Below, in pieces: positions 26,483 to 33,744 of a stretch of 64,000 nucleotides of DNA. The position numbers were made by a program, and so were the translations under genes. Positions within the stretch are counted from its first letter, which is position 1. Each line of letters opens with the position of its first letter. The notes under the pieces were generated by a model that saw only the letters and a program-made list of their open reading frames with translations, had not been told where the DNA came from and did no database searches. The DNA is from Frigoribacterium sp. Leaf263 (GTDB lineage Bacteria > Actinomycetota > Actinomycetes > Actinomycetales > Microbacteriaceae). The stretch spans positions 782,370 to 846,369 of the forward strand of contig NZ_LMMO01000001.1 of NCBI RefSeq assembly GCF_001422285.1, in the 5' to 3' direction.

Positions 26483-27196
26483 TCAGAGCGCGATGCGTCG
26501 GGAGACCACGTCGCGGGCCACGTCGGCGAGCTTCAGATTGTGACGGCGGGCGTACGAGCGGAGGGATTCGAAGGCGTCGTCCGTGCTGACGGACAGCGAC
26601 TCGGAGAGCACCCCCTTGGCCTGCTCGATGACGACGCGACTGCCCAGCGCCTTCTGCAGCTGCTGCTGGACGAGAGCGCTCTGGCGGGCTGTCCGCTCGT
26701 GGAGGATGCCCACCGTAGCGACGTCGGCCAGGGCCTGAGCGGCGCGGAGGTCGCGCGGAGCCAGCTCGCTCGGCCGGTCGCGCAGCAGGGTGAGCGTGCC
26801 GACCGTCTCGGAGCGGAGGCGCAGGGGGATGGCGAACGACGACCGGAAGCCGCGTCGCGTGGCGATCGATTCGTAGCTGTGCCACCGGGGCGGACCGTCG
26901 ACGAGGTCGGCGACCATGACCGGCTTGCCGCTCGTGTAGCAGTCGAGGCAGGGGCCCGCTTGCGCGCCCACCTCGAGCACCTCGACGAGATCGAGCGATT
27001 CGCTCGACGACGCGACGATGTCGAGGGCGCCGTCGTCGTCGGCGAGGAGGATGCCGGTCGCGGCGACGTCGAAGAGCGCGACGCTCGTCTCGACGACGGT
27101 CTGGAGGAGATCGACGACGTCGTACTCGGCGACGAGCGTGTCGGCCAATGTGGTGAAGAGGTCGACCAGATGGGTCTCCCGTTCGGAGCTAGTCAT
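26483..27196 (-). CDS. GAF-ANTAR protein
   Basis: This 237-residue protein has a GAF sensor (about 18-165) with the QAGPCLDCYTSGKPV segment and a C-terminal ANTAR RNA-binding domain (about 170-237) containing RVVIEQAKGVLSE. ANTAR domains bind paired hexanucleotide hairpins in nascent RNA and prevent termination. The start overlaps the stop of the gene at 27189 by 8 bp, so these two ANTAR proteins form one operon and may heterodimerise. Confidence 0.92.
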   Translation of the reverse strand: MTSSERETHLVDLFTTLADTLVAEYDVVDLLQTVVETSVALFDVAATGILLADDDGALDIVASSSESLDLVEVLEVGAQAGPCLDCYTSGKPVMVADLVDGPPRWHSYESIATRRGFRSSFAIPLRLRSETVGTLTLLRDRPSELAPRDLRAAQALADVATVGILHERTARQSALVQQQLQKALGSRVVIEQAKGVLSESLSVSTDDAFESLRSYARRHNLKLADVARDVVSRRIAL

Positions 27197-27905
27197 TGCG
27201 GTGTTCCTCGATTCCGAATTCTGTGGCCGAGAACGAGAGGCGTCCGTCGAGGATCTCTGCGGCGACGTCCGTCACTCGGGCGCCGGTCGAGTACGCGTGA
27301 CCTTGGATGAGCAGGTACGCGTCGTCGACGGAGACGTCGGCCTGGACGATGACCCGGCCGGTCGCCTGGTGCACGATGCGGCGCGAGTGGGACCCGACGG
27401 GGTCGGGCTCGACTCCGGCATCGTGCGCCTGTCGCTCGATGCCGTTCTTGAGCACGGCGCGGCTGACGGCCCGCGCCAGCAGGCGGGCATCGTCGACCGC
27501 CTCGTCAGGCAGTGACTCCGCCCGGTCGGAGTACATGTCGATGGCGCCGAGCTCGAGAGGACCCACCCGGACCGGGAAGACGAACATCGCCCGTACGTCG
27601 AGGCTCTGGAGGGCCGCGCCGAACAGGGGCCAGACCGCCGGCGTCGACGCGCGGGCGTCAGCGAGGATGACGGGCGAGCCCGAGCGCATCGAGTCCCAGC
27701 AGGGGCCCTCGCCGAGGTCGAACTGCAGCTCGTCGAGCCGTTCGGCGGTGCCGTCGGTCGCCGTGAGGGTCTCGTTGCCGAGCACGGAGCCCACCGTCGC
27801 GACCGAGACGCCCGTCACGGGGAAGAGGTCGAGGAACGGTCGGGACAGAGCGTCGGCGTTCGGGGCAAGGGCGATCGCTCGGACCGCCTCGTCGAGCTTG
27901 GACAT
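27189..27905 (-). CDS. GAF-ANTAR protein, first gene of the pair
   Basis: The GAF domain (about 15-160) contains LGEGPCWDSMRSGSPV, and the ANTAR region is more diverged (RIVHQATGRVIVQADVSVDDAYLLIQGHAYSTG). In it the usual IEQAKG is replaced by VHQATG, so RNA binding may differ from its partner. The 238-residue protein is translationally coupled to the ANTAR gene at 26483. Confidence 0.9.
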   Translation of the reverse strand: MSKLDEAVRAIALAPNADALSRPFLDLFPVTGVSVATVGSVLGNETLTATDGTAERLDELQFDLGEGPCWDSMRSGSPVILADARASTPAVWPLFGAALQSLDVRAMFVFPVRVGPLELGAIDMYSDRAESLPDEAVDDARLLARAVSRAVLKNGIERQAHDAGVEPDPVGSHSRRIVHQATGRVIVQADVSVDDAYLLIQGHAYSTGARVTDVAAEILDGRLSFSATEFGIEEHRND

Positions 27906-28602: not shown

Positions 28603-29934
28603 TCAGCGGCGCGGGGAGTGGCCCCGCGGGAGGTGCACCGGGCAGCGAGGAGCGTCGCCGGTCGCGCGCACCCGCCCGCCGGAGGCGGGCTTCGTCGGCA
28701 GGCGACGCCGGTTCACCTCGAGTCCCGTGTCGAGCACGGTGACCCTCGGGTCGCTCAGGGTCGCCACGGCGGCGGCCAGCCCCGCGATGGCGAGCTTCTC
28801 GCCGGGGCAGCGGTGGCCGGTGGCGACCCCGGCACCGCCGTGCGGGATGAACGCGGCGATGGCCTCGTAGTCGTCGACTCCGACGAAGCGCTCGGGGTCG
28901 AACTCGTCGGCGCGCTCCCACGAGGCGCGGTCGGTGTCCGTGCCGAGGATGTCGAGCACGAGGCGCCCTCCCTCGGGCACGGTGAGTCCGTCGAATTCGA
29001 CGTCGCGTCGGGTGAGCCCCGGCAGCATCGGCACGAACGGGGCCGTGCGTCGGATCTCCTGCGCGAAGGCGACCGCGAGCGGGCCGTCGACGAGCGAGCC
29101 GCGCTCCGCGGTCTCGGCGGCGATGCGCCTCCTCCATTCGGGGCGGTCGTGCAGCTCCTTCGCGGCGAACGCGACGAAGCGGGAGACGGCGATCAGGGGG
29201 CGGATGCTGTTCTGCAGCTCGATGCCCGCGAGCCGGGCCGGCAGCAGACGGCCCTCGCGGTCGCGATGCCAGGTCCACTCGAACAGGGCCGTGCCCGCGT
29301 CGGGGGTGAGGCGCCCGGCCCGGGTCGACTCGATCAGGCGCTCGGCGTGACGATCCGACCAGCGCCGGTGGAGGGCCGCGAGCAGGTACTCGGGCGAGTA
29401 GGGCACCCCGAAGCCGTCGACGATCTGCGCCAGTCGTGCCGACCATCGGGTCTTGGCGGCCGCGGTGCCCGGCAGGCCGGCCCAGCGCATGCCCGCGCGA
29501 CCGAAGGCGCCGACCGCCGCGTCGTAGGCCGAACGCTCGCCGCCGGCGAGCCACTCGTCGAGCTCGGCGCGCCATTCCCGCGCGAACAGGGGCGTGAGGC
29601 GGGCGACCTGCGCGTCGTCGTAGGCGACGTCGACGAAGGTGGCCTTGCGATGACGGTGATCGTCACCGTCGAGGCTGTGCACCGAGCCCTTGCCGAACAA
29701 CGTGCCCTGCACGATCCCCGGCATCGCGCCGTGGCGGGCGATGACGTCGCCGTCGGAGAAGAGCTCGACGGCCTCCGCTCCTCTCACGAGGAGGGCGTCA
29801 TCGCCCAGCAGGCCGAGGGGCGCCGCCCGGGCGTCGGGTGCGACCCGATCCCAGATCCGCGAACCGAAGCCGTAGCCGCGGGTCATCAGCGAGAGCGAAT
29901 CGTCTGTTAATGCACGGAGGATCATGCGGGTCAT
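28603..29934 (-). CDS. CYP152-family P450 peroxygenase, OleT-like active site
   Basis: This 443-residue protein lacks a membrane anchor. The heme-thiolate Cys is C376 in GGAGVATGHRCPGE, with the longer loop typical of CYP152. R245-P246 (NSIRPLIA) replaces the acid-alcohol pair, as in H2O2-using fatty-acid hydroxylases. F80 and H86 (TLFGKGSVHSLDG) correspond to F79 and H85 of OleT, the decarboxylase forming terminal alkenes, where the BSbeta hydroxylase has Gln. It probably uses H2O2 and fatty acids directly without redox partners. No reductase or ferredoxin gene is adjacent. Confidence 0.88.
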   Translation of the reverse strand: MTRMILRALTDDSLSLMTRGYGFGSRIWDRVAPDARAAPLGLLGDDALLVRGAEAVELFSDGDVIARHGAMPGIVQGTLFGKGSVHSLDGDDHRHRKATFVDVAYDDAQVARLTPLFAREWRAELDEWLAGGERSAYDAAVGAFGRAGMRWAGLPGTAAAKTRWSARLAQIVDGFGVPYSPEYLLAALHRRWSDRHAERLIESTRAGRLTPDAGTALFEWTWHRDREGRLLPARLAGIELQNSIRPLIAVSRFVAFAAKELHDRPEWRRRIAAETAERGSLVDGPLAVAFAQEIRRTAPFVPMLPGLTRRDVEFDGLTVPEGGRLVLDILGTDTDRASWERADEFDPERFVGVDDYEAIAAFIPHGGAGVATGHRCPGEKLAIAGLAAAVATLSDPRVTVLDTGLEVNRRRLPTKPASGGRVRATGDAPRCPVHLPRGHSPRR

Positions 29935-30308: not shown

Positions 30309-30490
30309 GATGCGGTCCCTCGGTCGGCGGCGGGCGAGCTGCTGCGGTGATCTCGGGCCCCCATCCGGGGGCGTGCCTCGAGATTATGACTGAGCTTGAT
30401 TTTCTTGAACGGGATTGCGGCCCCCGCGATCGTGGCCTATAGGGGCGGAACGGGAGCCTGGGCGTCGGCTCTGCTCCGTCTCGGAGCCCG

Positions 30491-30510
30491 GGTATATCGT
30501 TCGGGTATCG
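30491..30510 (+). promoter_or_regulatory. Possible PadR operator/promoter
   Basis: GGTATATCGTTCGGGTATCG contains two similar half-elements (GTATATCG and GGTATCG) 25 bp before the padR start. PadR proteins usually repress their own gene from such sites. The match is suggestive only. Confidence 0.3.
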
Positions 30511-30534
30511 CTCGACCCTCGACAGGAGATCATC

Positions 30535-31077
30535 ATGAGCACCTCGCGTACACCCGGCTCGTTCAGCGTCGACCTCGACGGGATGTGGCAGGCGATGGAT
30601 CAGCTGCGCTCGACCTTCGATCGCCGTGACGGCGCCCGCGCCCCCCGCGGCGAGGTCCGCGCCGCCATCCTCGCCCTCCTCGCCGAGCGGCCGATGCACG
30701 GCTACCAGGTCATCCACGAGATCGACGAGCGCAGCGGCGGCGACTGGAAGCCCAGCGCCGGCTCGGTCTACCCGACCCTGCAGCTCCTCGCCGACGAGGG
30801 CCTGATCGTCGCGGAGGAGACCGACGGTCGCAAGGTCTACTCGCTGACCGACTCCGGGCGGGCCGCCGCCGGCGTCGACGGAGCGGACGCCTCCGACCCG
30901 TGGGCTCCCCAGCGATCGACGGGCGACCGACGCACCGCGCTGCCCCGGGCCGGGGTCGAACTGGCCCGTGCCACCGCCCAGGTCGGTCGCACCGGCACCT
31001 CCGCTCAGGTCGACGAGGCGGTGGCGGTCCTCGACGAGGCCCGCCGTCGCATCTACTCGATCCTCGCCCGAGACTGA
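30535..31077 (+). CDS. PadR-family transcriptional regulator
   Basis: The ATG follows CAGGAGATCATC. Residues about 40-115 form the winged helix (RGEVRAAILALLAERPMHGYQVIHEI, then SAGSVYPTLQLLADEGLIV). The C-terminal helices form the dimerisation part. It is 5 bp from the AarF-like kinase gene, so the two are co-transcribed and the kinase is a likely regulatory target along with the regulator itself. Confidence 0.9.
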   Translation: MSTSRTPGSFSVDLDGMWQAMDQLRSTFDRRDGARAPRGEVRAAILALLAERPMHGYQVIHEIDERSGGDWKPSAGSVYPTLQLLADEGLIVAEETDGRKVYSLTDSGRAAAGVDGADASDPWAPQRSTGDRRTALPRAGVELARATAQVGRTGTSAQVDEAVAVLDEARRRIYSILARD

Positions 31078-31082
31078 CGCGG

Positions 31083-32795
31083 GTGGCGTCGCCCCGTCCC
31101 GACGAGGCCGATCATCCGGTGCACGACCGTGCCGGTCGCGCCCGTTACCGCCGAATCCTGCGGTTCGCGTCACGCCACCTGGCGGTGAGCTGGTGGTTCG
31201 AGCTCGTGCTGCCCCGCCTCGGTCTGCGCTGGATCGCCGACCGGACGCGCCCGCGTCGGATGCAGCGCTTCGCCCGGGGCTTCCACGTGCTCGCCCTCGA
31301 CCTCGGCGGTCTGATGATCAAGGTGGGGCAGTACCTGTCGTCGCGCCTCGACGTCCTGCCGCCCGAGATCACGAAAGAGCTGGAGGGTCTGCAGGACGAG
31401 GTCACGCCCGTGCCCTTCGCCGAGATCAAGGCGCTCGCCGAGGCCGAGCTGGGGATGCCGCTCGATCGCGTCTTCGCGTCCGTCTCGGCCGAGCCGATCG
31501 CGGCCGCGTCGCTCGGTCAGGCGCATCGCGCCACGCTCGGACCCGTCGACTCGGCCGACACCGGCCTCGTCGACGTCGTGCTCAAGGTGCAGCGTCCGGG
31601 CATCGACCGGATCGTCGACGTCGACCTGGCCGCGCTCCGGAGGGTCGGCGGCTGGCTCAGTCACGTGCGCCTCGTCTCCGACCGGGTCGACGCCCCCGCG
31701 CTCGTCGAGGAGTTCGCCCGCACCAGCCTGGAGGAGATCGACTACCTCAACGAGGCGGCCAACTCGGCGCGGTTCGCCGCGGACTTCGCCGATGACGACC
31801 GGGTCGGCGTGCCCGACGTCGTCTGGGAGCGCAGCACCCGACGGATCCTCGTGCTCGAGGACGTCTCGGCCGTCAAGATCACCGACATCGAGGGCCTCCG
31901 CGCCGCCGGCATCGACCCCGACGAGGTCGCCCCCGTCTTCGCGGCCGTCATGTTCGACCAGCTCTTCTCGAACGGCTTCTTCCACGCCGATCCGCACCCG
32001 GGCAACATCTTCGTCACCCCGATCGAGGCGGCCGACGGCGAACGGCCCTGGCGGCTCACCTTCATCGACTTCGGCATGATGGGCGAGGTGCCGACGGGCA
32101 CCCGGAACGGCCTCCGCCAGCTGCTGATCGCCGCCGCCTCGCGCGACGGCAGCGGCATGGTGAACGCCATGCGCGACCTCGGGGTGCTGCTGCCGAGTGC
32201 GGACACCCGCGAGCTCGAGCGGGCCGTGTCGGCGACCTTCGCCCGGTTCGGCGGCATGGGCTTCGCCGAGCTGCGAGAGGTCGACCCGCGCGAGTACCGC
32301 GAGTTCGCCGGCCAGTTCGGCGAGCTGATCAGGTCGCTGCCGTTCCAGCTGCCCGACGACTTCCTGCTCGTCCTGCGGTCGGTGACCCTCACCTCCGGGG
32401 TGTCCAGCGCCCTAAACCCGGCCTTCAACCTCTGGGACTCGGTCGAGCCCTACGCCGCGAGACTCGTGCGCGACGAGAGGGGCAACGCGGTGCAGGACGT
32501 CGCGCGTCGGGCGCTCGACGCGGCCCAGGTCACGGTGCGGCTGCCCGGTCGGCTCGACCACCTCGTCACGCGGCTGGAGGACGGCACCCTCGAGGTCGGC
32601 AGCCCGCGCATCGAACGTCAGCTGAGCCGGATCGAGCGGACGGCGAGGCGCGTGCTGGCCGCCGTGCTCTTCGGCGGCTTGCTGATCGCCGGTGCCGTGC
32701 TGAGGGCGGACGACGACGGACTCGGCACCGTGCTCATGATCGCCTCGATCGTGCCCGGGCTGTACGCCCTGCTTGCCGGACGCCTGCCGGGCTGA
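31083..32795 (+). CDS. ABC1/AarF/UbiB-family atypical kinase
   Basis: GTG start 5 bp after padR. The 570-residue protein has the signature KxGQ motif (MIKVGQYLSSR), the Ala-rich loop (AAASLGQAHRA), the ATP Lys (VVLKVQRPG), catalytic HADPHPGN and metal-binding IDFGMMG. Two C-terminal membrane segments (about 520-565) anchor it. UbiB-like kinases support isoprenoid quinone synthesis or lipid transport; in actinobacteria a menaquinone role is plausible but unproven. Coupling to a PadR regulator is notable. Confidence 0.92.
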   Translation: MASPRPDEADHPVHDRAGRARYRRILRFASRHLAVSWWFELVLPRLGLRWIADRTRPRRMQRFARGFHVLALDLGGLMIKVGQYLSSRLDVLPPEITKELEGLQDEVTPVPFAEIKALAEAELGMPLDRVFASVSAEPIAAASLGQAHRATLGPVDSADTGLVDVVLKVQRPGIDRIVDVDLAALRRVGGWLSHVRLVSDRVDAPALVEEFARTSLEEIDYLNEAANSARFAADFADDDRVGVPDVVWERSTRRILVLEDVSAVKITDIEGLRAAGIDPDEVAPVFAAVMFDQLFSNGFFHADPHPGNIFVTPIEAADGERPWRLTFIDFGMMGEVPTGTRNGLRQLLIAAASRDGSGMVNAMRDLGVLLPSADTRELERAVSATFARFGGMGFAELREVDPREYREFAGQFGELIRSLPFQLPDDFLLVLRSVTLTSGVSSALNPAFNLWDSVEPYAARLVRDERGNAVQDVARRALDAAQVTVRLPGRLDHLVTRLEDGTLEVGSPRIERQLSRIERTARRVLAAVLFGGLLIAGAVLRADDDGLGTVLMIASIVPGLYALLAGRLPG

Positions 32796-32871: not shown

Positions 32872-33579
32872 TCAGAGCAGGATCTCGCGGCGGACGACGA
32901 GCTGCGCGGTCTCCTGCAGAGTGCGGTTGTTCGTCCGGGCGTCGTCGCGGAGCAGCATGAACGCCTGGCCGACGCTGGTGCTGTGCCGCTGGGCGAGGGC
33001 GCCCTTCGCCTGCTCGATGACGATCCGGCTGTCGAGGGCGCCCTGAAGCTGTGTCGTCAGGGCCTCCTGCCGACGCAGTGCGTTGCGCTCCTGCAGGCTG
33101 ATGGCCAGGACCTGCGCCATGGCCTCGATGAAGCTCCTCTCGTCGTCGTCGAGGCGGCCGGGGGTCCGCAGGAACACGTTGAGTCCGCCGATCGCCCGGC
33201 CGTCGACGATCAGGGGCATGGCGAGGGCGGCCCCGAGACCGGAGTCCACGGCGGTGGCGACGAACTCCGGCCAGAGCTCGGTCGCCTCGCGGAGATCGGG
33301 CACCTCGATGCTCCGGAGGTCTCGGATGCTGTCGATGCAGGGCCCGCCGCTGGCGCCGATCTGCGCCTCCTCGACGTCGAGGGTGCGCTCCCGCGTCGAG
33401 GCGATGGGGCGGAACGTGTCGTGATCCGCGGCGAGGATCACCGCCGCCTCGACGGCCCGCGTGTGCTCGGTCGTCCCCCGGACGATGACGTCCATGGCGT
33501 CCACGAGGCCGCCCTCCGCGCTGAGCGACGCCACGAGATCCACGAACAGGCGGGCGATGTCAGCGGGATTGTCGGTCAC
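32872..33579 (-). CDS. GAF-ANTAR protein
   Basis: I chose the GTG at 33579, preceded by GGAGACG; an in-frame start at 33660 is less likely. The GAF domain (about 20-165) includes GASGGPCIDSIRD, and the ANTAR domain (about 170-235) contains RIVIEQAKGALAQR. It is a third ANTAR antiterminator within 7 kb, here as a single gene converging on the AarF-like kinase. Confidence 0.9.
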   Translation of the reverse strand: MTDNPADIARLFVDLVASLSAEGGLVDAMDVIVRGTTEHTRAVEAAVILAADHDTFRPIASTRERTLDVEEAQIGASGGPCIDSIRDLRSIEVPDLREATELWPEFVATAVDSGLGAALAMPLIVDGRAIGGLNVFLRTPGRLDDDERSFIEAMAQVLAISLQERNALRRQEALTTQLQGALDSRIVIEQAKGALAQRHSTSVGQAFMLLRDDARTNNRTLQETAQLVVRREILL

Positions 33580-33744
33580 GGTCTGCGTCTCCGTCGAGGG
33601 ATGTGATCGGGCGATCGGTGCGTGCCCGATGTCGGCGCCCCTGCGAACGACCCTAGTCACGACGCCGGTCCCGTGACCGTCGTGACGGGCGTGGCCGACC
33701 GGAGGGGCGCCTCCTCGGCTGCGGTGCGGGGCGCGGCCGCGGCG

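Follow-up and report, generated by a model that had tools for sequence, protein, structure and literature searches.

Analysis of the window, by which we mean the whole 64,000-nucleotide stretch of the Frigoribacterium sp. Leaf263 genome, has led us to a gene on its minus strand that probably encodes an H2O2-driven, stand-alone fatty-acid peroxygenase of the CYP152 type, belonging to an actinobacterial clade with His at the active site and releasing a mixture of 1-alkene and beta-hydroxy acid. Judging from studied relatives, it is quite likely that 1-alkene is a clear product of this enzyme; that it is the main product is possible, at somewhat under an even chance, because the protein carries Val at position 170 (OleT numbering) and an F-G loop shorter than that of OleT. 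An earlier note on this DNA had proposed an alkene-forming CYP152 enzyme of OleT type. The Phe-His-Arg-Pro residues are indeed in place and alkene formation is a reasonable expectation, while the descent from OleT and the use of His as a dependable sign have to be given up.

The reading frame is uninterrupted, starts with ATG and encodes 443 residues (Table 1). In a profile search of the protein the Pfam p450 family scored 41.3 bits (cut-off 22.8), and the NCBIfam CypC model (NF053744) matched over nearly its full length (E 3e-79) with 266.4 bits, which does not reach the equivalog cut-off of 600 bits; by its sequence the protein is a relative of CypC, not CypC itself. A sequence search of the PDB returned 24 distinct CYP152-type chain sequences at E <=2e-54, and other P450s followed far behind (E 6.5e-8 and weaker). 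In CYP152 enzymes an Arg245-Pro246 pair replaces the usual acid-alcohol pair of P450s, and this pair is present in the window protein. The assignment to the CYP152 peroxygenases made in the earlier note is thus borne out by the Pfam and NCBIfam matches, the heme loop around C376 and Arg245-Pro246, and the sequence identifies the frame as a genuine, intact CYP152-type fatty-acid peroxygenase gene. A pseudogene was ruled out by the unbroken frame and the conserved signature. No second P450 was found in the genome of the strain, which fits a peroxygenase without need of a partner.

Table 1. Features of the CYP152-type gene and of its conserved flank (positions in the window).
Feature	Position	Strand	Basis or conservation
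CYP152-type P450 fatty-acid peroxygenase gene	28603..29934	(-)	443 aa; Pfam, NCBIfam, PDB matches, residues, AF2 model
C376 codon, heme thiolate ligand in GHRCPGEK	28807..28809	(-)	alignment to OleT C365
R245-P246 codons (Arg binds substrate carboxylate in OleT)	29197..29202	(-)	R+P in 134/134 homologues (98+13+23)
V172 codon (OleT I170; BSbeta Val; Kocuria/Rothia/Corynebacterium decarboxylases Leu)	29419..29421	(-)	V in 98/98 close relatives
H86 codon (OleT H85; BSbeta/SPalpha Gln)	29677..29679	(-)	H in 98/98 close relatives and 33/33 His-clade rows
F80 codon (OleT F79, adjoining active-site His in OleT)	29695..29697	(-)	F in 98/98 close relatives
PadR regulator + ABC1-kinase gene	30415..32795	(+)	conserved flank ending the P450's variable stretch; not part of the enzyme

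A MAFFT alignment with references including OleT (4l40), BSbeta (1izo) and SPalpha placed F80, H86, R245, P246 and C376 of the window opposite F79, H85, R245, P246 and C365 of OleT, confirming the residue match drawn in the earlier note; for SPalpha, 8vwk, 8d8p and 8w1j the reference letters represent the aligned stretches only. The note had named an alignment of H86 elsewhere as an outcome that would speak against it, and here H86 stays on OleT H85 within a stretch of 23 residues that has equal length in the window and all six references. Its statement that hydroxylating relatives carry Gln at this position was likewise seen to hold for BSbeta and SPalpha. Among the residues that characterize OleT (CYP152L), the window protein has Phe79, His85 and Arg245 and lacks Ile170, having Val (V172) at a position that the earlier note left out.

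To follow these residues through the family, homologues were taken from 80 named Microbacteriaceae loci and from further genomes; the named loci are weighted towards close relatives, being the best 80 of 224. After duplicates and the partial sequences L176, L090, L095 and L125 had been dropped, 134 distinct homologues were aligned, of which 98 are close (at least 60% identity), 13 middling and 23 distant. F79, H85, V170, R245, P246 and C365 (OleT numbering) are invariant in all 98 close relatives, ruling out a chance motif, and F79 and H85 are present in all 13 middling homologues. The distant homologues have Gln (18) or His (5) at position 85; at position 79 Gln occurs in 12, and 11 of these also have Gln at 85.

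The phylogenetic position of the window protein was obtained with IQ-TREE from 66 rows in which columns 79, 85 and 170 were masked: ten of the 98 close relatives (every tenth), the 13 middling and 23 distant homologues, 13 named plasmid rows, six references and the window. The family falls into two sides (100/99). One of them comprises 33 rows, all with His at 85 and all actinobacterial by name or kinship label, and holds the window together with 8vwk, 8d8p and 8w1j, each a fatty acid decarboxylase by its PDB title. Within this 33-row His clade (100/99) the window belongs to a 20-row clade (99/98) that stands beside, not within, a four-row group made up of the three solved decarboxylases and locus L161. 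The other side contains BSbeta, SPalpha and OleT, with Gln in 30 rows, His in two (OleT and L094) and another residue in one; OleT fell within a group of Bacillota (99/98), and support for its exact sister is weak (84/63). A quicker tree, built without masking, also set the Gln side apart by this unrooted split (SH-aLRT 98). The purely actinobacterial look of the His clade is partly a matter of sampling, because the rows from genome searches represent the window's phylum only and, of the 13 named plasmid rows, no more than 10 stem from other phyla.

On this tree the His/Gln label requires at least three changes, and since the well-supported branches force at least two, the His of the window and the His of OleT are probably separate in origin. 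"OleT-type" therefore describes a resemblance and not a descent, the window His belonging to a separate, all-His actinobacterial clade that it shares with 8d8p (OleTPRN), 8vwk and 8w1j. By custom, P450s of the same subfamily share about 55% identity or more. The window is 45% identical to 8vwk, 41% to 8d8p, 40% to 8w1j, 37.5% to SPalpha, 32% to BSbeta and 31% to OleT, so that the term does not stand as a statement of kinship; OleT lies on the opposite, mostly Gln side of the split, and its grouping with the Bacillota Gln enzymes ruled out an OleT kinship. OleT is like the window in Phe79, His85, Arg245, Pro246 and the P450 peroxygenase fold, and differs from it in Ile170, in an F-G stretch two residues longer and in a heme loop that reads HRCAGEW.

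Whereas family, residues and kinship are observed here, the fold is predicted. An AF2 model built from 66 window and locus sequences reached a mean pLDDT of 94.1, and its first 22 structural matches were CYP152 entries. In VIA-align 2, 8d8p (Z 57.5, rmsd 1.2, 414 residues aligned) and 8vwk (Z 57.0, rmsd 1.5, 419 aligned) tied for first place, followed by 8w1j (Z 55.9, rmsd 1.4, 409 aligned), the BSbeta entries (Z 48.9-49.9; 1izo 49.2), the SPalpha entries (Z 47.8-48.4; 3awm 48.2) and OleT 4l40 (Z 47.9). Foldseek again ranked 8vwk, 8d8p and 8w1j as the top three, and they are also the nearest solved chains by sequence. They share with the window the His clade, the fold, His85, Arg245-Pro246 and GHRCPGEK, but differ from it in Leu170 instead of Val, in Met/Ala/Met instead of Phe/Val/Val at OleT positions 99/100/102, and in an F-G stretch of 28 instead of 30 residues (OleT 32, BSbeta 29). 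The window-type F-G loop VDGFGVPYSPEYLLA is two residues longer than in the solved decarboxylases and one residue longer than in most other His-clade rows, L093 being an exception. The hydroxylases BSbeta (CYP152A1) and SPalpha (CYP152B1) resemble the window in fold and in the Arg-Pro pair, BSbeta also in Phe79 and Val170; unlike the window they have Gln85 and lie across the deep split, SPalpha with Leu79 and Phe170. Among the decarboxylases 8w1j, from Corynebacterium, differs from the window in having Val at the Phe79 position of OleT, so that it would manage without Phe79.

By analogy with studied relatives, R245 would hold the carboxylate of the fatty acid above the heme, and Arg and carboxylate together would help H2O2 to form Compound I, making a redox partner unnecessary. 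Compound I may then abstract a hydrogen from C-beta. With His86 adjoining the carboxylate, some of the turnover would proceed to CO2 and 1-alkene, and the rest would rebound to give beta-hydroxy and some alpha-hydroxy acid. What determines this choice among CYP152 enzymes is described as an open question (PMC13049924), and the part of His85 in it is disputed. The OleT H85Q mutant has been reported to keep a near wild-type profile with mostly alkene (PMC5377825, Table 3), and conversely to lose myristate decarboxylation (PMC5343568), while the Gln85 enzyme BSbeta is reported to yield 1-tridecene as 36.8% of its C14 products (PMC5588734). His can hence hardly serve as the dependable mark of alkene formation for which the earlier note had taken it, and the Phe-His-Arg signature is weaker evidence for an alkene than kinship with the actinobacterial decarboxylases.

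The second proposed determinant, residue 170, is Ile in OleT and Val in both BSbeta and the hydroxylase CYP-Aa162, and according to the same report Q85H/V170I double mutants formed more alkene (PMC5588734). Among the OleT I170X mutants, I170V and I170L included, none was reported to decarboxylate myristate (PMC5343568). In our tree Leu170 is found in all four rows of the decarboxylase group (the three solved chains and L161), and Val170 in all 29 His-clade rows outside it, the window among them. The 30 Gln rows of the other side have Val (11), Phe (10) or Ile (9), and because Ile occurs in 9 of these 30, residue 170 does not sort the two sides of the tree. Moreover, the rule drawn from OleT is not directly transferable, since Leu accompanies decarboxylation in the actinobacterial enzymes though I170L abolishes it in OleT.

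It is against these data that the window protein may be viewed as mainly a hydroxylase, an H2O2-driven alpha/beta-hydroxylase of fatty acids giving traces of alkene at most despite His86. This reading, which we consider unlikely though the strongest of the alternatives, draws on the Val that V172 has in common with BSbeta and CYP-Aa162 and that all of the His clade beyond the decarboxylase group shares, and on the report that Q85H by itself lifts the decarboxylation/hydroxylation ratio of BSbeta just from 0.19 to 0.30, compared with 3.32 in OleT (PMC5377825). The window is nevertheless nearest to three decarboxylases by tree and by fold, BSbeta gives its reported share of alkene with Val170 in place, and Ile170 on the Gln side deprives the residue of its sorting value. 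We accordingly retain the mixed peroxygenase as the preferred reading, with the expectation from sequence that kinship would favour, and V172 would speak against, 1-alkene and CO2 as the main product. Other points weighing against this reading are the place of the window's clade outside the group of the solved decarboxylases, the identity of only 40-45% to these three, the differing F-G length and the dispute over His85. It is highly improbable that the enzyme is a P450 acting on a carboxylic acid other than a fatty acid, with a pocket reshaped by the clade-specific F-G loop: the length of this loop and the lack of a widely shared neighbour gene pointing to a pathway would agree with it, but Arg245-Pro246 and the other counted signature residues are invariant, and the PDB titles of the nearest structures record that they were determined with myristic, palmitic and oleic acid.

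Alkene formation in Actinomycetota is not new, as enzymes from Kocuria, Rothia and Corynebacterium are already known. According to PMC5818669 and PMC5377825, Rude et al. obtained 1-pentadecene with CYP152s from Kocuria rhizophila and from Corynebacterium efficiens, and PMC6167049 also tells of alkene formation by these. The K. rhizophila enzyme, which formed 1-pentadecene from palmitate (PMC5818669), is presumably CYP152T1 (P450 KR), whose His89 occupies the position of OleT His85 as in the window. OleTPRN and OleTPCL are presented as alkene formers in PMC13049924; the former is identified there with 8d8p, for which the PDB title names Rothia nasimurium, and 8w1j/8w1k from Corynebacterium lipophiloflavum is probably the latter. 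8vwk, from Kocuria marina, is called a decarboxylase by its PDB title alone. The earlier note held that an alkene-forming enzyme in this actinobacterial group would be noteworthy, which these precedents weaken for the phylum; for the family, our literature search found no alkene-forming or studied CYP152 of Microbacteriaceae in open-licence papers.

Taken alone, the window gene adds one more candidate to several actinobacterial decarboxylases already listed. We propose tentatively, and with more doubt than confidence, that it and its Microbacteriaceae kin constitute a His85/Val170 group of mostly 1-alkene makers that reached His independently of OleT. If this is true, the published need for Ile170 would be a peculiarity of OleT, decarboxylation linked to His would have more than one origin, and the making of 1-alkenes would be scattered as a trait across Microbacteriaceae. 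Here His85 occurs naturally with neither Ile nor Leu at 170, which separates the two proposed determinants and is of use mainly to specialists, and the group occurs in many named Microbacteriaceae strains.

The distribution of the gene is patchy. With at most four candidates scored per genome, a CYP152-type match at E <=1e-20 was found in 68 of 398 Microbacteriaceae genomes. In 35 of these, counting the window's own genome, a copy is close (at least 62% identity), and the other 33 have nothing nearer than a distant copy (30-38%); among congeners, three of 15 have a close copy. Rathayibacter VKM Ac-2857 has two close P450 copies on different contigs (L028, L035).

Neighbours of the gene in the window include GAF-ANTAR proteins, an alpha-amylase, PadR and the ABC1 kinase. 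Nine neighbour proteins were scanned with Pfam (six matched, three without match), and since the matches include no oxidase, no source of H2O2 was seen among them. Of the 80 named loci, 74 had full 3-kb flanks for comparison, and homologues of any one window neighbour ORF stand next to the P450 in at most three of the 80: a GAF-ANTAR homologue occurs there in L054, L059 and L077, and the other neighbour ORFs are matched in one or two loci. Across the 25 largest gene families listed for the loci, window members fall only in the P450 and in frames overlapping it, and the commonest other family reaches 16 of 81 loci. An operon or pathway read from the neighbours was therefore ruled out, as they are hardly shared across the named loci.

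The P450 lies within a stretch that is variable inside the genus. Twelve of the 15 congeners were examined, and in them conservation of the PadR-ABC1 flank reaches window position 30454-30491, where synteny ends sharply; in all 12 the 6-7 kb adjoining PadR lack each of the six window genes tested, namely the P450, the amylase, both GAF-ANTAR genes and the two small ORFs. In one congener (G407) a segment lying about 1 kb away from PadR corresponds to C1:763764-765451 in the window's own genome, 47 kb from the PadR there, and this single comparison suggests that the variable stretch measures some 47 kb. Parts of it are found elsewhere in congeners, such as the amylase, which 15 of 16 genomes carry, the window's own being among those counted. 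Three GAF-ANTAR genes lie within about 7.2 kb (26483-27196, 27189-27905, and 32872-33660), the first two overlapping by 8 bases.

Two further sets of CYP152 genes were met with. A second actinobacterial set has Gln at both 79 and 85, with the motif mostly LLQDxGSVQ, and occurs in Microbacteriaceae species other than that of the window (L116, L117, L118, L124, L168, L173), with further rows in L092, L169, L171, L174, L175 and L181; we know of no characterised member. Several plasmid-borne CYP152 genes (L177, L178, L180; H60, H74, H75, H77-H80) adjoin genes of metal-resistance type, namely those for a P-type ATPase, signal peptidase II, a cation diffusion facilitator and MerT.
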